Assembly: GCF_009649175.1 (NCBI RefSeq)
Contig: NZ_WJPO01000031.1
Location: 1-47,328 of the forward strand
Reading direction: 5' to 3'
DNA length: 47,328 nucleotides
Source: Rhodovulum strictum
GTDB taxonomy: Bacteria; Pseudomonadota; Alphaproteobacteria; Rhodobacterales; Rhodobacteraceae
Shown here: positions 9,845-20,573 of the stretch, one piece after another
How the letters are laid out: every line of letters begins with the position of its first letter
How positions within the stretch are numbered: position 1 is the stretch's first letter
Position numbers and translations under genes: made by a program
The notes under the pieces: generated by a model
Told to the model about the DNA's origin: nothing
What the model saw: the letters and a program-made list of their open reading frames with translations, nothing else
The model's database searches: none

Positions 9845-11221
9845 TCAGCGTGTGGACAAGCTTGACCGCGACGAAGCACTGGAATTGTCTCCCGGCAATT
9901 TGATGGACGCCTGAAACCCCGAAGCAGCGCCGGGACGCGGGGATCTCAGAACCAGCGGGCTTTCGATGCGATCCGCAATGGCGGCAACAATCGCGAGACC
10001 CAGCCCGCTGCCATCTGCACTTGCGCCCGCGCGCTCAAAGCGGGCTGTGAGACGGTCCAGAGTTTCAGGTGGCAGGACGGGCCCGTCGTTCGCGACGATC
10101 AACTGGCCATCCCGCGTCAAGGTCACGTCGACCGGGGCGGCGTCCGAGCCATGTCGCAGAGCGTTCTCCACGAGGTTTCGACACAGGATCCCAAAGGCGT
10201 CGGGATCGAGGTCCGACATCACCGGTGCCTCCGGCAGCGTCAACGCTATGCGGCCAGGCGATCCAGTTCGGGCGACATCGTCGACCACCAGACGTGCAAC
10301 GATCCTGAGATCGGAGCATCGATCCAGGCGAAGCTGTCCGCCTTCGGCCCGCGCGAGTTGCATCAGGCGTTCGGACAGCCGGGTCAGTCGCTTGAGAGTC
10401 GCTTCTATTTCGACCGCCCGCGCCTTGGCGGCCGTGTCGCCAGTTTCCGACTGCAGGCGCTGGACTTGGGCGATGGCGCCGGCCAAGGGCGTGCGAAGCT
10501 CATGCGCGGCGTTCGCGGCAAAGCTTCGTTCGGCATCAAAGGCGGCCTTCAGCCGGTCGAGCAGCCTGTTGAGGGTGGCTGCCACAGGAGCGATTTCGGA
10601 CGGGATGTCACCGTCCGGAACGGGTGACAGATCGCGGGCATTGCGCGCATCCAACCGTTCGCCGAAGCGTCGAAGGGGTGCGAGGCTCGCCTTGACGGCG
10701 AAAACGATGGACAGCAACGCCAGGGGCACCACGATCAGCAGGGGCAGCCCCAGACCCATCTGTATCTCGCGTGCGACAGAGGCGCGGTGCGCCAGGGGTT
10801 CAGCGACCGTGATCCTGACCGTCCCCTGCAGCGCGTCTTCGTTGTAGAGCCGGTGGGTTGCGGTCTGGCGGAAGCCCGGGCCGTCGTAAGCCGGAAAAAC
10901 CGCCACGTCGGCCGCGTGCGACTGAAGCAGGATGCGACCGCCGGCGTCACGCACGATGTAGGTGAAGAGCTCGTCATGCTCGCGGATGGCGCCAAGCCGC
11001 TGCGTGACCCCATCCTCTTCATCCTCTTCGCGCCCGACGATGTCCACGACGGCCAGCGGCAACAGGCGTTGTGCAGTTTCCTGCAGCGCGGAGTCGAAGA
11101 CCTCGTCCATCTCGCCCCGCAGGATCAAGGCCGTCACGGAGGCGGCCGCGATCCAGAGCGCGGTCAACAGAATGCCAAGGACCAGCCCGAGCCGGGCCTG
11201 CAGGCTCGCCGGGCCTCTCAT
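9845..11221 (-). CDS. Sensor histidine kinase (OmpR-partner type)
   Basis: A 458-residue inner-membrane kinase. Membrane helices at about 10-32 and 165-188 enclose a periplasmic sensor region. This contains an unusual acidic run (REEDEEDGVTQ), so metal-cation sensing like that of PmrB or PhoQ is possible (inference). A HAMP-like linker leads to the HisKA helix with the phosphorylated His in FAANAAHELRTPLAGAIAQ, then the ATPase domain with the N box NLVENALRHGS and a G box GSGLGLAIV. Its ATG overlaps the regulator stop by 4 bp. The true start is taken here, because frames extending further upstream only run antisense through the regulator gene. Confidence 0.93.
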   Translation of the reverse strand: MRGPASLQARLGLVLGILLTALWIAAASVTALILRGEMDEVFDSALQETAQRLLPLAVVDIVGREEDEEDGVTQRLGAIREHDELFTYIVRDAGGRILLQSHAADVAVFPAYDGPGFRQTATHRLYNEDALQGTVRITVAEPLAHRASVAREIQMGLGLPLLIVVPLALLSIVFAVKASLAPLRRFGERLDARNARDLSPVPDGDIPSEIAPVAATLNRLLDRLKAAFDAERSFAANAAHELRTPLAGAIAQVQRLQSETGDTAAKARAVEIEATLKRLTRLSERLMQLARAEGGQLRLDRCSDLRIVARLVVDDVARTGSPGRIALTLPEAPVMSDLDPDAFGILCRNLVENALRHGSDAAPVDVTLTRDGQLIVANDGPVLPPETLDRLTARFERAGASADGSGLGLAIVAAIADRIESPLVLRSPRPGAASGFQASIKLPGDNSSASSRSSLSTR

Positions 11222-11877
11222 GGCTTGCCCAGGCGGTAACCCATGCCGCGCTCGGTCTCGATGACGTGTGGCCCGAGCTTCTTGCGCAGGCGGCTGACAT
11301 GGACCTCGATGGTGTTGCTTTCGACTTCGGCGTCGAAGGCGTAGAGCTTCTCTTCCAGCTGCGCCTTCGACAGAAGCTGCCCCGGGCGGGACAGGAGCGC
11401 CTCGAACAGCGCCCATTCGCGCGCCGTCAGCGTGACCGGTCTGCCGTCGCGCGATATGCTGCGCGCGGCAAGGTCGATGTCCAGCGTGCCGTGGCTGATG
11501 ATCGGGTTCGGATTGCCGCTGTAGCGCCGCGCGACCGAGCCGATGCGCGCCGAGAGTTCCGACAGGTCGAACGGCTTCACGAGATAGTCGTCGGCCCCGG
11601 CATTCAATCCGTCGATCCGGTCCGACACCTGGTCGAGCGCGGTCAGGATGATCACGGGTGTCACGTCGCCGCGCGCGCGCAGGGTCCTGAGAAAGGTGAT
11701 GCCGCGGCCATCGGGCAGCATCAGGTCGAGCAGCACGAGATCGTAAGCGGCACCGGCCATGGCATCTCCCGCCGCATCCAGCCGCGTGACCCAGTCCACC
11801 GACTGACCGTCGCCTGCGATCTGATCGCGCACGGCGGCGCCGAGAACCGTGTCGTCCTCGATCAGCAGGATGCGCAT
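11218..11877 (-). CDS. OmpR-family response regulator
   Basis: A 219-residue regulator starting MRILLIEDDTVLGAAVRDQI, with the phospho-acceptor Asp in DLVLLDLMLPDGRG, the conserved Thr in PVIILTALD and Lys in DYLVKPFDLSEL. The C-terminal winged helix has TAREWALFEALLSRPGQLLSKAQL and NTIEVHVSRLRKKLG. It resembles the PmrA/QseB group. The start at MRILLIEDD is the family norm, and an in-frame upstream ATG gives a non-conserved extension. It is transcribed away from the PepSY gene, and the shared intergenic region holds paired CTGA-N7-CTGA sites that I propose it binds. Confidence 0.95.
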   Translation of the reverse strand: MRILLIEDDTVLGAAVRDQIAGDGQSVDWVTRLDAAGDAMAGAAYDLVLLDLMLPDGRGITFLRTLRARGDVTPVIILTALDQVSDRIDGLNAGADDYLVKPFDLSELSARIGSVARRYSGNPNPIISHGTLDIDLAARSISRDGRPVTLTAREWALFEALLSRPGQLLSKAQLEEKLYAFDAEVESNTIEVHVSRLRKKLGPHVIETERGMGYRLGKP

Positions 11878-11921
11878 GTTGGTCCCGATCCTTTCCCGAT
11901 GACCCTCCATGACTTGTCTGG

Positions 11922-11970
11922 CTGACGCTAAGCTGACACCGCCGGGCTCCGAGTTTCAGGCTCCCGTCAG
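11922..11970. promoter_or_regulatory. Composite response-regulator operator between the regulator and PepSY genes
   Basis: A forward site CTGACGCTAAGCTGA (11922-11936) is a tandem CTGA repeat with an 11-bp period. After 19 bp comes the opposite orientation TCAGGCTCCCGTCAG (11956-11970). Tandem half-sites 11 bp apart are the usual target of OmpR-family dimers. The same composite, with the same 19-bp gap, stands before the Asp-rich gene at 13781-13829. A CATGTG stretch begins 11 bp after the operator and could be the -10 of the PepSY promoter. The operator lies about midway between the divergent starts at 11877 and 12022. Confidence 0.72.
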
Positions 11971-12021
11971 CTTCGCCGCGCATGTGTTGCATCAAGAGGC
12001 GTGCCACGAGGAGTTTGCCCC

Positions 12022-12345
12022 ATGAAGAAGACATTGACAATTCTCGGCTTTCTCGCGGCCTTCCCGGCGGGGGTAGCGCTTGCCGATGACGACTGCTTCG
12101 TGCCCATGGCGGACTGGCAGCCGAGGGATGCCGTTCAGCGCCTCGCCGAAGACAACGGCTGGACCGTGCGCCGCATCAAGATCGACGACGGCTGCTACGA
12201 GATCGACGGCCGGGATGCCGAGGGGCGCCAGATCGAGGTGACGGTTCATCCCGCCACGCTGGAAGTCATCGAGTTCGAATACGAAGACGATGAGGACGAA
12301 GACGATCGCTCTCGCAGGGATCGGGAGCAGCGAAGCGATGACTGA
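12022..12345 (+). CDS. Exported PepSY-domain protein with acidic tail
   Basis: A 107-residue secreted protein. The signal peptide MKKTLTILGFLAAFPAGVALA ends at an AxA cleavage site. One PepSY domain follows: DAVQRLAEDNGWTVRRIKIDDGCYEIDGRDAEGRQIEVTVHPATLEVIE. The C-terminus is strongly acidic, then Arg/Asp-rich (EYEDDEDEDD and SRRDREQRSDD). Two cysteines, one near the start of the mature protein and one in DGCYEI, could form a disulfide. GAGGAG precedes the start. Next to a sensor kinase and a flavocytochrome it may present or sense metal at the membrane (inference). It overlaps the next gene by 8 bp. Confidence 0.87.
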   Translation: MKKTLTILGFLAAFPAGVALADDDCFVPMADWQPRDAVQRLAEDNGWTVRRIKIDDGCYEIDGRDAEGRQIEVTVHPATLEVIEFEYEDDEDEDDRSRRDREQRSDD

Positions 12346-13693
12346 TCTGGCGCAGCCCGCAAAGAGCGTCAACGTGGGGCCAGTCCGGTCGTCAATTTCC
12401 TGGACGACAGCCGTTGGCGACGTTCTGAACCTGTCTGGCCCCTTGCTGGTCGCCCTGATGTGCGTTCTGGCGGGGCTGCTCGGCTTCACCACGTATGCGT
12501 CCTACGGTTCGGAGGCAGCCATCGGTATTGCCGTCGGGGCCGCGGCGGTGGTCGCCATGAGCCAGACCCTGATCCTTGCCTCACGACCGCGTCTGCTGGA
12601 GCCGATGTTCGGTGGGCTCGACCGCATGTACCGGGTCCACAAGTGGCTGGGCATCTCCGCGATGGTCCTGATGATCCTGCACCAGCAGATCGAGCCCGAT
12701 TTCGAGCGGGCGGTGCGCGAGACCGGGCTGGGGGAGCTGGCCGAGGAGGCAGGGGAGTTCGCCTTCAATGCGCTGCTCGTGCTGATCGCGATCAGCTGGT
12801 TCCGGCGATTACCCTTCACCCCACTGGAGATTCCCTATCAGTTATGGCGGTTCAGCCATCGGTTCATGGGCGTCCTTTTCGCTGTCATCGTGTTTCACCA
12901 GTTCTTCGTCGACATGCCGACCGGGGTCGATCCGTCGCTGTCGGTGATGCTGAACACGTTCGGGCTCGGTGGAGTGATCGCCTGGGTGCATACCGAATTC
13001 GTTGCACCGCGCCTGCGGCGCAGGGAGTATACGGTCAGCGACATCAGCCGACATGGCGACACCACCGCGTTGACGCTCAGCCCCAAAGGGCGGGCCATGC
13101 GCTGGCGGCCTGGGCAGTTCGCCTTCTTCCGCGCGCCGGAAGCGGGTTTTTCCGAACCGCACCCGTTCACGATCGCCAGCGCCCCACGCTCTGACGGCGC
13201 GCTGACCCTGTCAATCAAGGGGCTGGGTGGCTGGACCCGGCGCTTGCCTGACGCCCTTCGAACCGGGATGAGCATGCAGGTCGAGGGGCCCTATGGCCGG
13301 TTCGACTTCCACAAGGGTGGCGCGCGCCAGATCTGGCTTGCGGGCGGCATCGGCATCACGCCGTTCCTTGCGTGGGCGGAAAGCCTGACCGAGGCGGAGC
13401 GGCGAGACATTCACCTCGTTCATTGTGTCCGCGCTCCCGAAGAGGCGATCGGGTTGGAGATCCTTCAAGCGGCGGCGGCGCGCAACCCGCGGTTCAGCTT
13501 TCAGGTGGTCGCAACCGCGCGTGATGGACGCCTGACGGCCGAGCGTCTGATCGGTATGGCGCCCTTCGCGGTCCGGGATGCCGATCTGTGGTTTTGTGGC
13601 CCGACGGGCCTGAAAGATGGGATCCTGAAGGGTCTGAAGGCGCTGGACCAGACGCCGCGACGCGTCCGCTTCGAGCATTTCGAGTTCGCCTGA
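12338..13693 (+). CDS. Ferric reductase-like flavocytochrome (haem b membrane domain with FAD/NAD(P) module)
   Basis: A 451-residue oxidoreductase. The N-terminal half holds about six membrane helices with paired histidines that could bind haem b (YRVHKWLGI, MILHQQIE, FSHRFMGVLF, IVFHQFFVD). The cytoplasmic half is a ferredoxin-NADP reductase module: FAD motif HPFTIAS, glycine-rich LAGGIGITPFLAW and terminal WFCGPTGLKDGI. The family moves electrons from NAD(P)H through FAD and haem across the membrane, for example to ferric iron. The start has GGGAGCAG upstream. It is co-transcribed with the PepSY gene, and a strong terminator follows. The physiological acceptor is not shown by sequence. Confidence 0.88.
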   Translation: MTDLAQPAKSVNVGPVRSSISWTTAVGDVLNLSGPLLVALMCVLAGLLGFTTYASYGSEAAIGIAVGAAAVVAMSQTLILASRPRLLEPMFGGLDRMYRVHKWLGISAMVLMILHQQIEPDFERAVRETGLGELAEEAGEFAFNALLVLIAISWFRRLPFTPLEIPYQLWRFSHRFMGVLFAVIVFHQFFVDMPTGVDPSLSVMLNTFGLGGVIAWVHTEFVAPRLRRREYTVSDISRHGDTTALTLSPKGRAMRWRPGQFAFFRAPEAGFSEPHPFTIASAPRSDGALTLSIKGLGGWTRRLPDALRTGMSMQVEGPYGRFDFHKGGARQIWLAGGIGITPFLAWAESLTEAERRDIHLVHCVRAPEEAIGLEILQAAAARNPRFSFQVVATARDGRLTAERLIGMAPFAVRDADLWFCGPTGLKDGILKGLKALDQTPRRVRFEHFEFA

Positions 13694-13749
13694 CGAGCTG
13701 AACATCGGTTTGGCGCACTTACCAGGCTCCGCTCGCGCCCCAGCTTCCC

Positions 13750-13776
13750 GCCCCGCCAGACCGGCGGGGCATTTTT
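13750..13776 (+). terminator. Rho-independent terminator after the flavocytochrome gene
   Basis: A perfect 8-bp stem GCCCCGCC / GGCGGGGC with a 5-nt loop (AGACC) is followed by ATTTTT. It separates the PepSY/flavocytochrome operon from the next operon, whose own operator begins 5 bp further on. Confidence 0.88.
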
Positions 13777-13780
13777 CTTC

Positions 13781-13829
13781 CTGACGGCAAGCTGAAGCGA
13801 GAATCGCAGCGCCGTCAGGAAGGCCTCAG
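13781..13829 (+). promoter_or_regulatory. Composite response-regulator operator upstream of the Asp-rich gene
   Basis: CTGACGGCAAGCTGA (13781-13795) matches the 11922 site at 13 of 15 positions. After a 19-bp gap comes TCAGGAAGGCCTCAG (13815-13829), another TCAG-N7-TCAG. Half-site periods and the 34-bp distance between the two elements are identical to the operator at 11922-11970. A CATATC stretch starts 11 bp downstream, the same offset as CATGTG in the other promoter, and may be the -10. I infer that both promoters are controlled by the regulator encoded at 11218-11877. Confidence 0.72.
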
Positions 13830-13875
13830 GTCGGGTCTGCATATCGGTCTCATCAAACGAAAAGGAGACTCTCCG

Positions 13876-14238
13876 ATGCGAAAGATCCTCACCCTTCTTG
13901 TTGCCTCCACCGCGCTGACCGCCGTGATCGGCACCACGGCCTGGAGTGCGATGAACGCCGCCCCCGATGGGAGCCCTCGGCCCTTCGCGGCGATCTGGCA
14001 GGACGCGACGCAGTCCTTGCCCCTCATCCTCGCTAGTGACGACGATGACGACGATGATGAAAGCCACGGCTCGCGGCGTGATCACGACGACGATGATGAC
14101 GACGAAGACTGCGACGACGATGACGATGACGACGACTGCGGCAGCGGCGCTCCCAATCCCGCGCCCGCCGGCACCGTCGCCCCACCGCAGAACGGGCTTT
14201 TCGGGAACGGCGCCCCACCGCAGGTCCAGGTGAACTGA
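13876..14238 (+). CDS. Exported Asp-rich peptide
   Basis: A 120-residue secreted protein. A signal peptide (MRKILTLLVASTALTAVIGTTAWSA) leads to a short linker and then two nearly pure aspartate runs, around residues 55-61 and 70-90, with interspersed His, Cys and Glu. The tail is Pro/Gly/Asn-rich. No known domain. Such acidic runs bind divalent or trivalent cations, so a periplasmic metal sponge or scavenger is plausible, but this rests on composition alone. AAAAGGAGA precedes the start. It is first in a six-gene operon behind the composite operator. The GAC/GAT repeats could be prone to slippage. Confidence 0.8.
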   Translation: MRKILTLLVASTALTAVIGTTAWSAMNAAPDGSPRPFAAIWQDATQSLPLILASDDDDDDDESHGSRRDHDDDDDDEDCDDDDDDDDCGSGAPNPAPAGTVAPPQNGLFGNGAPPQVQVN

Positions 14239-14288
14239 GCCTCCCCGACGCACGCGAACCCCGCACCTCGTACACAAGGACCAACCCG

Positions 14289-14759
14289 ATGAAATCGCTT
14301 CTTGCGACACTCGCGCTGACCACGGCGCTGACCCTTCCCGGCCTCGCCATGGCGCGCCCGGTGACGCTGACCACGACTCTCAACAGCTACGGTGGCGATG
14401 GAGCCTATCTCGCGCTCTACGTCACCGATGCCTCCGGCGCCTACATGGGCAGCCTCTGGATGGCCGGGACCAAGTCGAAATACTACGAGCACCTGACCGA
14501 CTGGTACCGCGCGACCGGCGGCGACACCGCGCAGGTGAACGGCATCACCGGCGCCAGCGTGGGCGCGGGGCGGACGCTCGAGATAACGCTCGATCTGGCC
14601 GACGCGCTTTTCGATGCGGGCTACACGCTCCACATCGACGCGGCCGTCGAGGACATGCGCGACAGCCCGAACGAGGTGGCCGTCCCGCTGACGACCGCTG
14701 GTGCCGGCACTCCGGTGACCGGCCGACGCTACATCGCCAGCTTCGCCTACGACATGTGA
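14289..14759 (+). CDS. DUF2271 exported protein, probable ApbE flavinylation target
   Basis: A 156-residue protein with a signal peptide (MKSLLATLALTTALTLPGLAMA) and a DUF2271 domain: VTLTTTLNSYGGDGAYLALYVTDASGAYMGSLWM, then a KYYEHLTDWYRA region and an immunoglobulin-like end. Residues 84-90, NGITGAS, resemble the D-G-x-(S/T)-G-A-(T/S) motif at which ApbE attaches FMN in NqrC and RnfG, which would make Ser90 the flavin site. I recall DUF2271 genes being reported in flavinylation clusters with PepSY and ApbE genes. That fits the two genes that follow here. Its likely role is a periplasmic flavoprotein electron carrier. Confidence 0.82.
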   Translation: MKSLLATLALTTALTLPGLAMARPVTLTTTLNSYGGDGAYLALYVTDASGAYMGSLWMAGTKSKYYEHLTDWYRATGGDTAQVNGITGASVGAGRTLEITLDLADALFDAGYTLHIDAAVEDMRDSPNEVAVPLTTAGAGTPVTGRRYIASFAYDM

Positions 14760-14771
14760 GGGGTGATGGCC

Positions 14772-16976
14772 ATGATCCGTGCACTCCATCGCTGGCCGGG
14801 TCTTCTGGCTCTGGCTCTCGTCACCGTCCTATCCCTGAGCGGCGCGGCGCTGTCGGTCTTCCCTGCGGCCGAGCGCATTGCCGCGCCGCAGGCCGAGGCG
14901 GGCATGACGGTGGCCACCCTCGCGGATCGCATTCAGGGCGCCTATCCGGGCGTCGAGCAAATCCGCCGTGCGCCCTCTGGCCGGATCACGGCCTACTGGT
15001 TCGATCAGGGCACGCCCGGCGCCGCAGTGATCGACCCCGCCACTGGTCAGGGTGCGGCCTCCGCCGACCCTAACCAGACGCAACGCTGGCTTACCAATCT
15101 GCACCGCTCGCTGTTCCTCGGCGATGGCGGGCGCATCGCCATGGCCGTGGGTGCCGCGGCGATGTTGGGTCTGTCGTTCTCTGGTGTCCTGCTGATCACC
15201 CGGCGTGTGGGCGGTTGGCGGAACTGGTTCACGCGGCTGCGCGGACCCCTTGCTGGCCGACTGCATATCGAGATCGCCCGCATCGCGGTGGTCGGCCTTG
15301 TCCTGTCGTCTACCACCGCCCTGTGGATGACGGCGTCCACATTCGATCTGCTTCCCGGTGGCGGCGTGCCAGCCATGCCGGTTGAGGTGAGCGGTGAGGC
15401 GGCGTTCGCACCTGGTCAGATGCCCCTTCTAGTGGAGACGCCCGTCGACGAACTGCGGGAGTTGAGCTTTCCCTATCCCGGCGATGCGACGGACGTCTTC
15501 ACGCTGAAGACCGACCAGGGGACCGGGTATCTCGATCAGGGCACCGGTGCGCTGCTGGCCTGGACCGACCTTGCCGGGTGGGAACGCGTATCAGAGACCA
15601 TTTACATGCTGCACACCGGACAGGGAGCGGCGACGCTTGGCCTCGTTCTGGGCCTGATGGCGCTCGGCGTCCCGGCCATGGGCGTGACTGGCGTTGTCGT
15701 CTGGCTCGCAGGACGGAGGGAGCGGCCGCGCATCCGGGGCAATCAGCCCGCCGGTCGGGCCGAGACGATCCTGCTCGTCGGCAGCGAGGGCGGCAGCACT
15801 TGGGGTTTCGCCGCGACGCTTCATGCCGCGCTGAGCCGCGCCGGGCAGAGCGTGTACGCAGCACCCATGTCGGCCTTCTCGCCGGACCGCTACACCAGCG
15901 CGAGGCGGATCATTGTCCTCGCGGCGACCTATGGTGATGGCGATTCACCGGCCTCGGCCAAGGGTTTCCTGAGCCGCCTTGCGACCCTCGACCACGCCCC
16001 CGGGGCCCCCGTGGCTGTTCTCGGCTTCGGCGATCGAAGCTTCCCGGCCTATTGCGCCTTCGCGAAGGCCGTGTCCGAGGCTGCCCGTGCGAAAGGCTGG
16101 TCCGAACTTCTGCCGCTGGACACAATCGACCGCCAGTCACCGCAGGACTTCGCACGCTGGGGCCGCGGCCTCGGGAAAGTGCTGGGGATCGACCTTGAAC
16201 TCGCCCATCAGCCGGTTCTGCCTGCCACCGAGACGCTCACGCTGATCTCGCGCCGCGACTACGGAAACGAGGTTCAGGCCCCGACCGCGATCCTGCGCTT
16301 CGCTCTGCCGAAGGCGACTCTGTGGCAGCGTCTGACTGGAGCGGCCTTCGCACGCTTCACCGCAGGCGACCTGATCGGCATCCTGCCCGAGGGATCACCC
16401 GTACCGCGCCTCTACTCGCTCGCCTCCGCGCGCCGCGACGGGTTCGTCGAGATCGTGGTGAAGAAGCAGCCTGGCGGACTGTGTTCCGGCCAACTGACCG
16501 CGCTGGAACCCGGGCAAACCGTCACCGCATTCCTGCGCCGCAATCCGGGGTTCCAACCGGGCCGAGGCAAAGCGCCGCTGATCCTGATCGGCGCCGGAAC
16601 CGGCATCGGCCCGTTGGCGGGTTTCGTGCGCGGCAACACCAGGCGGCGGCCCATCCACCTTTTCTTCGGGATGCGTCACCCGGACAGCGACTTCCTCTAC
16701 GGTGAGGAGATGCCCGTCTGGCAGGACGAGGGCCATCTGGTCCAGCTTGTAACCGCCGTCTCGCGCGGGGCGCGGCCGCATTACGTCCAGGACGCGCTCC
16801 GCAATGAGGCTGCCGAGGTGGCCCGGCTGATCAGGGATGGTGCGCGGGTGTTGGTCTGCGGCGGGCGCGACATGGCCGCGGGCGTCGCCGACGCGCTCGC
16901 TGACATCCTTGCTCCCACCGGGCTCTCGCCCGCAGCACTGAAAGCCGAGGGACGCTATGTCGAAGATGTGTACTGA
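14772..16976 (+). CDS. PepSY-TM / flavodoxin / FNR fusion reductase
   Basis: A 734-residue membrane electron-transfer protein. Residues 1-315 form a PepSY-TM region with four membrane helices (near 8-28, 118-140, 165-190 and 288-312). About 330-475 is a flavodoxin-like FMN domain (ETILLVGSEGGSTWGFA, AATYGDGDSPASA, GFGDRSFPAYCAFAK). About 485-734 is a cytochrome P450 reductase-like FAD/NADP domain (RLYSLAS, CSGQL, GAGTGIGPLAGF, C-terminal YVEDVY). It should carry electrons from NADPH through FAD and FMN into the membrane. ATG 14772 is chosen because GAGGGG lies 9 bp upstream; ATG 14766 is an alternative. Its partner is probably the flavinylated DUF2271 protein. Confidence 0.88.
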   Translation: MIRALHRWPGLLALALVTVLSLSGAALSVFPAAERIAAPQAEAGMTVATLADRIQGAYPGVEQIRRAPSGRITAYWFDQGTPGAAVIDPATGQGAASADPNQTQRWLTNLHRSLFLGDGGRIAMAVGAAAMLGLSFSGVLLITRRVGGWRNWFTRLRGPLAGRLHIEIARIAVVGLVLSSTTALWMTASTFDLLPGGGVPAMPVEVSGEAAFAPGQMPLLVETPVDELRELSFPYPGDATDVFTLKTDQGTGYLDQGTGALLAWTDLAGWERVSETIYMLHTGQGAATLGLVLGLMALGVPAMGVTGVVVWLAGRRERPRIRGNQPAGRAETILLVGSEGGSTWGFAATLHAALSRAGQSVYAAPMSAFSPDRYTSARRIIVLAATYGDGDSPASAKGFLSRLATLDHAPGAPVAVLGFGDRSFPAYCAFAKAVSEAARAKGWSELLPLDTIDRQSPQDFARWGRGLGKVLGIDLELAHQPVLPATETLTLISRRDYGNEVQAPTAILRFALPKATLWQRLTGAAFARFTAGDLIGILPEGSPVPRLYSLASARRDGFVEIVVKKQPGGLCSGQLTALEPGQTVTAFLRRNPGFQPGRGKAPLILIGAGTGIGPLAGFVRGNTRRRPIHLFFGMRHPDSDFLYGEEMPVWQDEGHLVQLVTAVSRGARPHYVQDALRNEAAEVARLIRDGARVLVCGGRDMAAGVADALADILAPTGLSPAALKAEGRYVEDVY

Positions 16977-17952
16977 ACCGATGCGCCATGCGCTGAACGG
17001 TCCGACCATGGGCACGCGCTGGTCCGCGCTGTTCTTCGCGCAAGCGGGTTTCGACCCCGAGCCGGTCCGCGCAGCGCTGCAGGCCGCCGTCGATGAGGTG
17101 AATGCGCAGATGTCCACTTGGAAGCCCGACAGCGATCTCATGCGCCTGAACGCGGCGCCGGTGGGCGCGTGGGTGGCGGTGCCGGATCGGCTCGGGCAGG
17201 TTTTGCGGCTCGGACTCGAGATCGGGCGCGCCTCGGACGGAGCCTTCGATATCGGCATGGGCGATGTGGTGACCGCATGGGGTTTCGGGCCGCTTGCAGC
17301 GACACCCGACCGCATCCGCACCGCGATGAGGACCGACCGGGTGCCCGCGCATGAGGCGTTGGAGATCAACGCGGGCAACGGCCTTGTCCGAAAGACGTCC
17401 CCGGTTGCACTGGACCTGAACGGCATCGCGAAGGGGTATGGCGTCGACAGGCTGGCGGAGACGCTGGTGGCGCACGGCATCGACGATGCTCTTGTTGGCA
17501 TTGACGGCGAAATGCGTGCGCTCGGGCTTCGACCAGATGGGCAAGCATGGACAATCGCCGTCGAGGCCCCGGACGCGGATCGCCGTGCTCCCCATTCCAT
17601 CTTGGCGCTTCAGGGCGCCGCCGTGGCCACCTCAGGGGACTATCGCCACTGGGTCGAGGTTCAGGGCCGGCGCCTGTCGCACACCATGGACCCGAACCGC
17701 GGCGCACCCATACTCGCCTCGACCGCCTCGGTCACGGTCGTAGCAAGGACATGTGCCGAGGCTGACGCCTGGGCTACAGCGTGCATGGTGAAAGGGAGCT
17801 TGGAGGGCGGTCAATTGGCGCGTAGAAGCAATCTGAGCGTTCTCTTCATTGATCGTGAGGGCGCTCTGCTTCGCGAAACGCGAGTTGGACGGCTGTTCGA
17901 GACCCGTCCAGGCCCCGAGCGCGTGGTTGACGCCGGGATAAGCACCATATGA
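16957..17952 (+). CDS. apbE: FAD:protein FMN transferase (ApbE)
   Basis: A 331-residue ApbE-family enzyme that transfers FMN from FAD to Thr/Ser of exported targets. Conserved blocks are GPTMGTRWSA at the N-terminus, STWKPDSDLMRLN, FDIGMGDVVTAWGFGP, DLNGIAKGYGVDR (about 151-163) and the metal/FAD loop SGDYRHWVE followed by LSHTMDPN. There is no signal peptide or lipobox, so it may act in the cytoplasm or start elsewhere, which is unusual since many ApbE proteins are periplasmic lipoproteins. It overlaps the upstream gene by 20 bp and the downstream gene by 4 bp (ATGA). The most likely substrate is the TGAS motif of the DUF2271 protein. Confidence 0.93.
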   Translation: MSKMCTEPMRHALNGPTMGTRWSALFFAQAGFDPEPVRAALQAAVDEVNAQMSTWKPDSDLMRLNAAPVGAWVAVPDRLGQVLRLGLEIGRASDGAFDIGMGDVVTAWGFGPLAATPDRIRTAMRTDRVPAHEALEINAGNGLVRKTSPVALDLNGIAKGYGVDRLAETLVAHGIDDALVGIDGEMRALGLRPDGQAWTIAVEAPDADRRAPHSILALQGAAVATSGDYRHWVEVQGRRLSHTMDPNRGAPILASTASVTVVARTCAEADAWATACMVKGSLEGGQLARRSNLSVLFIDREGALLRETRVGRLFETRPGPERVVDAGISTI

Positions 17953-19853
17953 CAGCTTTGTTTCATGATCGCCTGAACGTCGTCCTTTTGGGCCTGGCAT
18001 TGCTTGGTCTGGTTTCCGGCCTTGCATTTTGGCTGGTGGGGCAGCCGGATTTTGCCACGATCGCGTGGACGGCAGGTGTCGTCCCGGTCCTTGCGGCCCT
18101 CTGCGTCGAGATCGTGCGCAGCCTCTGGAAGGGCGAGGTCGGGCTCGACATCGTGGCGGCGCTGTCGATGTCGGCAGCACTTCTGTTCGGCGAGACGCTG
18201 GCTGCGGCGGTGGTCGCGTTGATGTACTCCGGCGGCACCTTCCTCGAAAGCTTCGCGCAGGGTCGTGCCCGGCGCGAGATGAGTGACCTGTTGTCCCGCG
18301 TGCCCCGGACCGCCACCCGTCACCGCAACGGTGCCCTCGACGAGGTGCCGCTGGACGACATCGCCCCGGGCGACCTTCTGCTGATCCGCCAGGGTGACGT
18401 TGCCCCCGTGGACGGGACAGTCGAGAGCGCGGGCGCGATGTTGGACCAGTCCGCGCTGACGGGCGAGTCGATGCCCGCCCGGCTGGAGCACGGGCACGAC
18501 GTGATGAGCGGCTCAACCAATGCGGGCGAGGCTTTCGATCTCCGGGTCACGCGAAGAGCTGCCGACAGCACCTATGCCGGGATCGTCCGGTTGGTCGAGG
18601 AGGCGCAGAAGTCCAAGGCGCCGATGGCCCGGCTGGCCGACCGGTATTCCCTCCTGTTCCTGATCGTCACGGTGACACTGGCGACAGCGGCCTGGTGGTT
18701 CACCGGAGATCCGATCCGCGCAGTTGCGGTGCTGGTGGTCGCGACACCCTGTCCGCTGATCCTTGCCGTGCCGGTGGCGCTGGTGGCCGGGCTTTCGCGG
18801 GCGGCCCATTTCGGGGTGTTGATCAAGGGTGGCAGGCCGCTCGAGGCGCTGGCCCGGATCAAGACGTTGATCCTCGACAAGACCGGCACGCTGACGGATG
18901 GGCGACCACAGATCGTGTCCATCGACCGGCAGGGCGAGATGTCCGAGGACGAGGTTCTGTATTTCGCCGCTGCCCTCGATCAGGCCTCCAAGCACCCGAT
19001 CGCGCAGGCAATCGTCGCGGCGGCGCAGGCGCGCGGTGTCGCCTTGCCCGTGCCTCAAGACGTGGTCGAGACGGCGGGCGGCGGCGTCGTCGGAACCGTC
19101 GACGGGCGGCGCGTCGTGGTGGGAGGTGCGGGGTTCGTGGCCAGTCAGGCCGGCGTGCCCGACCCTGACGCGTCGGTCGTCGAGGCCGGATCGGTTGTCG
19201 TCTCGCTTGCTGTGGACGGGAGGCTCATGGGCCATCTCGTCATGGCGGACGCGCTGCGCGCCGGCACCGCCGACTTGCTTGCAGGTTTGCGCAAGCTGGG
19301 GATCAGCCGCATTCTGATGGCGACGGGCGACCGCCGTGCCGTGGCAGAGGCTGTGACGGAGGGTTTGGGGCTCGACGCCGTGCGGTCCGATCTCACTCCA
19401 GATCAGAAGGTGATGCTGGTTCTGGCAGAGCACAAGAATGGCCCGGTGATGATGGTCGGCGATGGCGTCAACGATGCGCCCGCGCTGGCCGCCGCTGACA
19501 TCGGCGTCGCCATGGGAGCGCGCGGGGCGGCAGCTTCGGCCGAGGCGGCCGATGTCGTGCTGCTGGTGGATCACCTGGATCGCCTTCTGCCAGGCATCGA
19601 GATCGCGCAACGGTCCCGCCGCATCGCCCTGGAAAGCGTCGCTGCCGGGATCGGTCTCTCGGTCCTTGGCATGATCGCCGCCGCCTTTGGGTATCTGACG
19701 CCCGTGCAAGGCGCGCTTCTGCAGGAAGTCATCGATGTTGCCGTCATCCTGAACGCATTGCGGGCGCTCAGGATCGTGCCTGGACAGACAGCGAGCCGCC
19801 CGTCCGATGCAACGGCGAGGCACCTGCCGCAGTCCAAATCTAGCGCCGCTTAG
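17949..19853 (+). CDS. P1B-type metal ATPase with TPC motif
   Basis: A 634-residue heavy-metal ATPase without an N-terminal metal-binding domain. The transport motif in the sixth helix is TPC (VVATPCPLILAVPVALVAG, about 263-280) instead of CPC, placing it outside the copper group and near the P1B-5-like ATPases reported to export Ni or Fe. It lacks their haemerythrin tail. Other core motifs are intact: TGESMPA, DKTGTLTDG (about 310), KHPIAQAI and [11 protein letters not shown] (about 503). The last helix has LLQEVIDVAVILNALRALR. Start and stop overlap apbE and nearly abut the VIT gene, so it belongs to the flavin operon. I infer iron or a similar divalent metal as cargo. Confidence 0.88.
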   Translation: MTALFHDRLNVVLLGLALLGLVSGLAFWLVGQPDFATIAWTAGVVPVLAALCVEIVRSLWKGEVGLDIVAALSMSAALLFGETLAAAVVALMYSGGTFLESFAQGRARREMSDLLSRVPRTATRHRNGALDEVPLDDIAPGDLLLIRQGDVAPVDGTVESAGAMLDQSALTGESMPARLEHGHDVMSGSTNAGEAFDLRVTRRAADSTYAGIVRLVEEAQKSKAPMARLADRYSLLFLIVTVTLATAAWWFTGDPIRAVAVLVVATPCPLILAVPVALVAGLSRAAHFGVLIKGGRPLEALARIKTLILDKTGTLTDGRPQIVSIDRQGEMSEDEVLYFAAALDQASKHPIAQAIVAAAQARGVALPVPQDVVETAGGGVVGTVDGRRVVVGGAGFVASQAGVPDPDASVVEAGSVVVSLAVDGRLMGHLVMADALRAGTADLLAGLRKLGISRILMATGDRRAVAEAVTEGLGLDAVRSDLTPDQKVMLVLAEHKNGPVMMVGDGVNDAPALAAADIGVAMGARGAAASAEAADVVLLVDHLDRLLPGIEIAQRSRRIALESVAAGIGLSVLGMIAAAFGYLTPVQGALLQEVIDVAVILNALRALRIVPGQTASRPSDATARHLPQSKSSAA

Positions 19854-19871: not shown

Positions 19872-20573
19872 ATGAGCAGGCTCTCACATTCCGAAGTCCA
19901 CATGGTGCATCGCATCGGCTGGTTGCGCGCTGCTGTTCTCGGGGCGAATGACGGCCTCGTTTCAACTGCGAGCTTGGTTGTCGGGGTCGCTGCGGCCGGA
20001 TCTGGTCGTCCCGAAATTCTGATCGCCGGACTTGCCGGCCTCGTCGCCGGAGCGATGTCGATGGCGGCCGGCGAATACGTCTCCGTCAGTTCGCAGACCG
20101 ACGCCGAACAGGCTGACATCGCGCGGGAGACGCGCGAGCTGAAGGAAACGCCCGAGGCGGAGCTGGAGGAGCTCACACGCATCTATGTGGGGCGAGGGCT
20201 CGACGAAGGTCTCGCGCGGCAGGTGGCGATTCAACTAACCGAGAAGGACGCGCTTGGCGCCCATGCGCGTGACGAGTTGGGCATCTCGGAAACCGTGACC
20301 GCGCATCCCATCCAGGCGGCTCTGGTCTCGGCGGCGACCTTCGCTGTCGGGGCGGTCATCCCGCTCATCATCGCGGCGCTTGTGCCTGCCGCACAGATCA
20401 CGCTCATCGTCGCGGCCACGACCCTCCTGGCGCTTTCTGTGCTCGGCGGGCTCGGGGCGTCGGTTGGCGGTGCGGGGATCATCAAGGGAGCCATTCGCGT
20501 CACCTTCTGGGGCGCCCTCGCCATGGCAGCGACAGCAGCCGTGGGTATGCTCTTCGGCGTGACAGTCGGCTAG
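19872..20573 (+). CDS. VIT1/CCC1-family iron/manganese transporter
   Basis: A 233-residue membrane protein with the VIT1/CCC1 pattern. Helix 1 is WLRAAVLGANDGLVSTASLVVGV, the second segment is GLVAGAMSMAAGEYVSVSSQTDAEQADIARE, a charged cytoplasmic helix carries Glu residues (ELKETPEAELEELTRIYV), and three further helices follow to the C-terminus. Eukaryotic members load Fe2+ or Mn2+ into vacuoles, and bacterial ones are thought to export them. A GAAAGG site precedes the start, 18 bp after the ATPase stop. It is the last gene of the operon, and together with the TPC ATPase points to metal efflux. Confidence 0.9.
   Translation: MSRLSHSEVHMVHRIGWLRAAVLGANDGLVSTASLVVGVAAAGSGRPEILIAGLAGLVAGAMSMAAGEYVSVSSQTDAEQADIARETRELKETPEAELEELTRIYVGRGLDEGLARQVAIQLTEKDALGAHARDELGISETVTAHPIQAALVSAATFAVGAVIPLIIAALVPAAQITLIVAATTLLALSVLGGLGASVGGAGIIKGAIRVTFWGALAMAATAAVGMLFGVTVG

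Follow-up and report, generated by a model that had tools for sequence, protein, structure and literature searches.

A conserved four-part operator beside an OmpR-type regulator and putative flavin electron-transfer genes of Rhodovulum strictum

Genes around the two operators

The window, meaning the whole stretch of DNA that was analysed, comprises 47,328 nt of Rhodovulum strictum contig NZ_WJPO01000031.1 (GCF_009649175.1). A PmrA/QseB-like response regulator is encoded at 11218-11877 on the minus strand. Its receiver domain (Pfam Response_reg, 87.6 bits, cut-off 30.2) and winged-helix domain (Trans_reg_C, 79.1 bits, cut-off 26.2) together place it in the OmpR/PhoB family, and tandem direct half-sites with a period of about 11 bp adjoin its gene. 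The protein scored 206.1 bits against the NCBIfam model of PmrA (cut-off 330) and 200.1 bits against that of QseB (cut-off 345). Because both scores were well under the cut-offs, it was rejected as an equivalog of either and was filed as neither.

The end of the regulator gene overlaps that of a sensor histidine kinase gene (9845-11221, minus strand), and both lie to the left of operator 1 (11922-11970). The kinase has a 2CSK_N sensor, and its nearest models were QseC and PmrB, below their cut-offs. The sensor carries a three-residue acidic insertion (REEDEEDG) that was missing in nearly all relatives compared, while the kinase of locus L261 also has residues in these columns; the acidic stretch after R-E was kept in the relatives compared. 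The metal motif RExxE is not claimed for this sensor, since the REEDE form is the product of the insertion.

Operator 1 lies between divergent genes. To its right, on the plus strand, follow a gene for a small PepSY_2 protein (12022-12345, Pfam PF13670) with an acidic tail and, as judged by eye, a signal peptide, and a gene for a ferric-reductase-like membrane protein with FAD/NAD domains (12338-13693, Pfam). A terminator-like hairpin with a T tract (13750-13780, plus strand, folding energy -19.7) abuts operator 2 (13781-13829); the hairpin proper spans 13750-13770 and the T tract runs up to 13780. Two terminator-like sites were found within 11800-14000, against a shuffle mean of 1.5.

Past operator 2, six plus-strand genes form an apparent operon. 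The first encodes a small Asp-rich protein (13876-14238) that matched no Pfam or NCBIfam family. In some relatives, such as locus L012, a PepSY_2 paralogue adjoins the site of the operator 2 type. Next come a DUF2271 protein (14289-14759, PF10029), in whose translation the flavinylation-type motif GITGAS was read, a PepSY_TM-flavodoxin-FNR transmembrane reductase (14763-16976, Pfam) and an ApbE FAD:protein FMN transferase (16957-17952, PF02424). A heavy-metal P-type ATPase (17949-19853, NCBIfam TIGR01525 above the cut-off), whose gene overlaps apbE, and a VIT-family transporter (19872-20573, PF01988) are probably encoded in the same operon as the DUF2271 and ApbE proteins.

The joint occurrence of PepSY_TM, DUF2271 and ApbE genes is that of a PepSY-like flavinylation cluster, and TGAS in the DUF2271 translation has the form [S/T]GA[S/T], which PMC8238504 describes as the site flavinylated by ApbE. 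In the same account, PepSY-like clusters with DUF2271 and ApbE are tied to iron reduction, and 167 of them contain VIT1 (PMC8238504). The fit of GITGAS together with these clusters indicates that a flavin electron carrier of the periplasm, along with the transmembrane reductase that belongs to it, is the most likely product of the second operon. The predicted ferric reductase, VIT transporter and P-type ATPase suggest a link with metals, chiefly iron.

Occurrence and conservation of the composite site

The earlier note had described the pattern CTGA-N7-CTGA-N19-TCAG-N7-TCAG at 11922-11970 and 13781-13829, and both sites matched it without a mismatch. When up to three mismatches were allowed, the window still contained only these two matches, while 100 shuffles of the window gave a mean of 0.08 matches and no shuffle had two. 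By base composition, the expected number of perfect matches was 4.4e-6 for the window and 3.6e-4 for the whole genome of 3.8 Mb. A post-hoc control covered all four-letter words with half-site gaps of 3-12 and centres of 5-30. The CTGA pattern was the sole word and geometry that occurred twice in the window, and in 40 windows simulated by a first-order Markov model the number of repeated words and geometries averaged 0.025, with 1 as the largest number. Single composite sites of any word numbered 23 in the real window, against a simulation mean of 9.05. Beyond their common half-sites the two operators had little else alike, as had been claimed.

The genome-wide search that had been proposed as a check found exactly four perfect matches in the host genome, and the reversed control pattern had none there. 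The form with a 20-bp centre added no further member. One match with two mismatches in the 19-bp form (contig C12) and one in the 20-bp form (contig C7) were rejected as chance. The other two perfect sites lie 1833 bp apart on contig C5, within a second copy of the locus (L005; C5:17000-35000) that has 78% DNA identity to the window locus over 7.9 kb. The gene order on C5 is as in the window: kinase, regulator, operator, PepSY_2, ferric reductase, operator, Asp-rich protein, DUF2271 and PepSY_TM. Past apbE in this copy, the DNA of the window's P-type ATPase gene was matched by 187 bp alone, with 78.6% identity. The two host regulators are 90% identical and the second has its own operator pair, so they may cross-talk.

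Across the family, the exact site was present in 75 of the 394 genomes, with 123 sites in all, and none of the 394 contained the reversed control. Among the family loci chosen by pattern and inspected, 28 of 30 adjoined genes of the system. Two loci, L016 (G177, contig C1) and L028 (G131), had an exact site and no system-gene match, and both were taken as chance; by our own reading, the neighbours of L028 are ABC-F-type and pseudouridine-synthase-like reading frames. In the class sample the site occurred in 8 of 385 genomes, host included, and in all of the other seven it lay next to a homologue of the regulator, with identities of 42 to 78%. The phylum sample had it in 12 of 398 genomes, seven of the same family and five of the same class, and no site was found in the 263 rows outside the class. 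In the eleven genomes besides the host, all sites lay near a regulator homologue.

The species-wide scan, with one genome per species and the pattern extended by CA at +11, gave at least 119 loci. Among the matches listed, 113 of 119 lay within 1.5 kb of a system-gene homologue, and 107 of 119 adjoined a strong regulator match (at least 240 bits) or a strong DUF2271 match (at least 100 bits). Six of the 113, again among the matches listed, were counted there by weaker matches only (L074, L089, L123, L127, L157 and L181), and six had no system gene within 1.5 kb (L082, L083, L096, L119, L150 and L153). By record title, many of the listed loci belong to Rhodobacterales. Others come from the Hyphomicrobiales genera Mesorhizobium, Hoeflea, Shinella and Bosea, and from Thalassospira, Reyranella and Ferrovibrio. 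Rhodobacter capsulatus, a laboratory alphaproteobacterium, has a related locus (L159). In the gammaproteobacterium Marinobacter vulgaris (L074) the exact site stands by a regulator 41% identical to that of the window. At L074 and at L290 (G602) the exact operator adjoins regulators 41-42% identical to the window's, and it may therefore belong to a wider regulator clade. At L069 and L112, metagenome bins labelled Burkholderiales, the site adjoins regulators 83 and 73% identical, respectively; horizontal transfer or misbinning may explain this.

The adjacent OmpR-type protein had been named as the simplest candidate for the binding factor, and loci selected by protein agreed with this. A regulator search of the 394 family genomes returned 94 with a match at E <= 1e-60. 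Site and regulator occurred together in 74 genomes, the regulator only in 20, the site only in one (G131, mentioned above) and neither in 299. Of the 75 genomes with the site, 74 thus had a regulator homologue, compared with 20 of 319 without it; as the species are related, the Fisher value of this association is not to be taken literally. Some of the 20 genomes with the regulator only had the site with one mismatch or with a 20-bp centre, whereas the weakest regulator matches among genomes without the site are probably other paralogues.

The promoter alignment of homologous loci, which the earlier note had named both as a check and as a possible refutation, found the half-sites conserved. Together with the two host copies, 100 regulator places gave 102, with the nine lowest-ranked places left out; 93 of the 102 matches scored 240 bits or more, and among the 93 there were 88 with distinct upstream DNA. 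A grid scan of the 88 regions over equal arm gaps of 4-10 and centres of 14-26 found sites with at most one mismatch at gap 7 with a centre of 19 bp (48 exact, 61 in all) or 20 bp (12 exact, 18 in all), and none at any other geometry in the grid. By best fit over arm gaps of 6-8 and centres of 15-23, 79 regions had at most one mismatch, two had two, and seven had three or more. All 79 fitting regions kept the 11-bp half-site period and an arm distance of 34 or 35 bp. Operator 1 started mostly 40 to 60 bp upstream of the regulator start codon.

Regions with three or more mismatches included those of regulators 86-88% identical (L210, L219 and L228), and the half-sites persisted in relatives whose regulator was only 56-60% identical. 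The recognition-helix region was much alike in weaker regulator homologues with no clear operator, so the recognition helix alone does not predict the site. Selection by DUF2271 gave a similar picture for operator 2: among 74 loci with enough upstream DNA, 66 had an exact site, three had one mismatch and five were unrecognisable, and the best reversed-control match in these regions had 5-7 mismatches. In nine DUF2271 loci the site found was operator 1 itself.

Operator anatomy and promoter elements

Probable -10 elements flank both operators on the plus strand. CATGTG (11981-11986), assigned to the PepSY/ferric-reductase operon, and CATATC (13840-13845), assigned to the DUF2271 operon, both start 11 bp past the last base of the operator, in line with the offset first proposed. 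A third element, absent from the earlier note, is CATGGA on the minus strand (11911-11906), at the same +11 offset on the other flank of operator 1; it is the probable -10 of the regulator/kinase operon. Since a -10-like element stands on both flanks, operator 1 very probably drives the regulator/kinase operon as well. No promoter of the sigma-70 type turned up in a consensus scan around the operators, and the promoters were therefore deduced from the fixed offset and its conservation.

For this comparison, 85 operator 1 sites with at most three mismatches were reduced to 68 by dropping near-copies, and 60 operator 2 sites not common with operator 1 were reduced to 43. Around operator 1 the A at +12 was near-invariant (66/68 rightward, 64/68 leftward). 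At operator 2 it was present in 43/43 on the downstream flank, compared with 5/43 on the upstream flank. CA at +11/+12 occurred in 48/68 rightward and 30/68 leftward first sites and in 33/43 second sites, and the commonest -10 hexamer of the second site was CAGATT (15/43). Hence the CATRT-type -10 proposed earlier fits both sites of the window and is not the rule in the relatives. The element distance of 34 bp likewise held at both window sites, while in the relatives the first kind of site has 34 or 35 bp.

The centre of operator 1 was 19 bp in 56/68 and 20 bp in 12/68, and that of operator 2 was 19 bp in 43/43. Among 272 half-sites of operator 1, 252 were CTGA, 19 CTTA and one CTGT; the 172 half-sites of operator 2 comprised 170 CTGA, one CTTA and one CTGT, so that CTTA made up 20 of the 22 non-CTGA half-sites. 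The outer (upstream) arm of operator 2 read CTGA/CTGA in all 43 relatives. A rough test of energy and T tract placed a terminator-like hairpin ahead of operator 2 in 38 of 60 loci.

In its paired half-sites and 11-bp period the operator resembles that of BqsRS, also called CarRS. BqsR of Pseudomonas aeruginosa is described as Fe(II)-responsive and as binding TTAAG-N6-TTAAG with an 11-bp period; its operators also occur in clusters, and the downstream pentamer of the bqs promoter overlaps its -35 (PMC4682146). Unlike those of BqsRS, the half-sites here are CTGA and not TTAAG, the two arms are inverted at a fixed distance, and the targets are flavin and ferric-reductase operons. By the half-site counts given above, neither operator is a box of the BqsR/PmrA type, with TTAAG or CTTAAG half-sites.

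By sequence, the closest solved relative of the regulator is BasR/PmrA, and PmrA/BasR and QseB of enterobacteria provided its best two NCBIfam models. The PmrA box is CTTAAG-N5-CTTAAG, with an 11-bp period, and CTTA, the main variant tolerated here (19/272 operator 1 half-sites), can be compared with it. Unlike PmrA/BasR and QseB, the present regulator would have other targets and a composite inverted operator.

Proposed regulon and alternative readings

The comparative evidence strongly supports the claim that both operons belong to one regulon under the adjacent regulator, and the two gene groups are very probably switched together. We consider it likely that each site is an operator of the 11218-11877 regulator, acting by class II activation through two face-to-face dimers, and that the targets form a periplasmic electron route. 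On each arm, a dimer of the phosphorylated regulator would sit head to tail over two CTGA half-sites spaced by 11 bp, and two such dimers would face each other at a distance of 34 bp. The -10-proximal arm would lie 10 bp ahead of the -10, in the position of a -35. Because this arm lies at the -35 position, a class II activator that recruits RNA polymerase is the most likely form of action, as judged from geometry alone. Operator 1 would work in two directions, rightward on the PepSY_2/ferric-reductase operon and, probably, leftward on the regulator/kinase operon as autoregulation. Operator 2 would work in one direction, on the Asp-rich/DUF2271/PepSY_TM/ApbE operon, and would need both arms. 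The regulon as proposed would provide a flavin- and haem-based route by which electrons of NAD(P)H in the cytosol reach the periplasm; its purpose is probably the reduction of metal (iron), as gene content and literature suggest.

The two arms could instead be independent, each a regulator box that serves the promoter on its own side, with the fixed distance a result of divergent-promoter packing. Both arms of operator 1 do face a -10-like element and its centre varies between 19 and 20 bp, as this reading would have it. In the dissected BqsR promoter, moreover, extra upstream pentamers raised the output and were not essential (PMC4682146), which by analogy cautions against a need for the outer arm. 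Operator 2 argues against independence: its outer arm faces no -10, a hairpin stands on this side in the window and in the 38 of 60 loci given by the rough test, and the outer half-sites and the 19-bp centre are nevertheless intact in 43/43. Independent arms are thus fairly unlikely, and the intact outer arm, on a side with apparently no promoter, suggests that the four half-sites form a single cooperative operator.

The same regulator might also be a repressor, sitting over the -35 region until a signal lifts the repression. The proximal arm does overlap the place of the -35, so that occlusion is conceivable. The promoters look too weak to need repression, since the scan, confined to the sigma-70 type, found no promoter-like site, and the BqsR promoter is an example of an activator that overlaps the -35 (PMC4682146). 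We regard repression as quite unlikely.

Binding by another factor, such as a Fur-, Irr- or RirA-type iron regulator, would make the regulator gene merely a target. Tandem half-sites with an 11-bp period are the form of OmpR-family sites and are not known as that of iron boxes, and the site travels with this regulator (74/75 vs 20/319). Related PepSY-like flavin clusters are reported as Fur-repressed in Caulobacter and Shewanella (PMC8238504, PMC3751524), and still an iron regulator as the binding factor appears very improbable. Chance, or a trivial copy from duplicated promoter DNA, is suggested by the duplication of the locus in the host (78% DNA identity, 7.9 kb) and can be dismissed almost outright, given the 3.6e-4 sites expected per genome, the unlike remainder of the two operators of one locus, half-sites kept where the regulator is only 56-60% identical, and the family-wide pattern with its regulator-selected and DUF2271-selected counts.

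Returning to activation by paired dimers, the product of the gene next to operator 1 recalls a further system. In Vibrio cholerae, the small periplasmic PepSY protein DbfQ, whose gene adjoins those of a two-component system, is reported to bind the sensor DbfS and to bias it to the phosphatase state, and the dbfQRS operon seems positively autoregulated (PMC12714742). The PepSY_2 gene at 12022-12345 adjoins the regulator gene, as in the DbfQRS-like modules that the same source defines by a small PepSY-domain protein encoded within four genes of a kinase or regulator and that exist elsewhere in opposite-strand arrangements (PMC12714742). Unlike in DbfQRS, the PepSY gene here heads an operon with a ferric reductase. 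By analogy, the PepSY_2 protein may act on the kinase as DbfQ does, which would close a feedback loop.

The second operon shares with the PepSY-like flavinylation clusters of PMC8238504 the joint presence of PepSY_TM with an NAD-binding domain, a TGAS-bearing DUF2271, ApbE and VIT1. The sole regulation named for these clusters in the parts of that source drawn on here is Fur repression in two species (PMC8238504). We found little in the literature on the control of flavin-based electron transfer to the periplasm. A description of the operator was not found among the titles and abstract beginnings listed, which is weak evidence of novelty as most subscription papers lie outside this search. As far as it shows, the operator, its four-part geometry, its double use at a divergent promoter and its tie to flavin genes are new.

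Whether the four half-sites represent a new operator class, placing two dimers as one cooperative unit that is required even at a one-way promoter, and an Alphaproteobacteria-wide signature of a dedicated covalent-flavin electron-transfer regulon, we regard as evenly balanced. The 16-letter signature marks genes of the putative two-component flavin electron-transfer regulon in several groups of Alphaproteobacteria and provides a bioinformatic handle for finding its members. With this system it can also be tested cleanly whether tandem regulator dimers in inverted pairs work as a single unit.

Plasmids carry the locus as well. The best plasmid match to window positions 11100-14800 was a 425-kb plasmid of Roseicitreum antarcticum (NZ_CP061502.1, 91.7%). 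Since 23 plasmid records contain at least 80% of this stretch in one place, the locus is often plasmid-borne.
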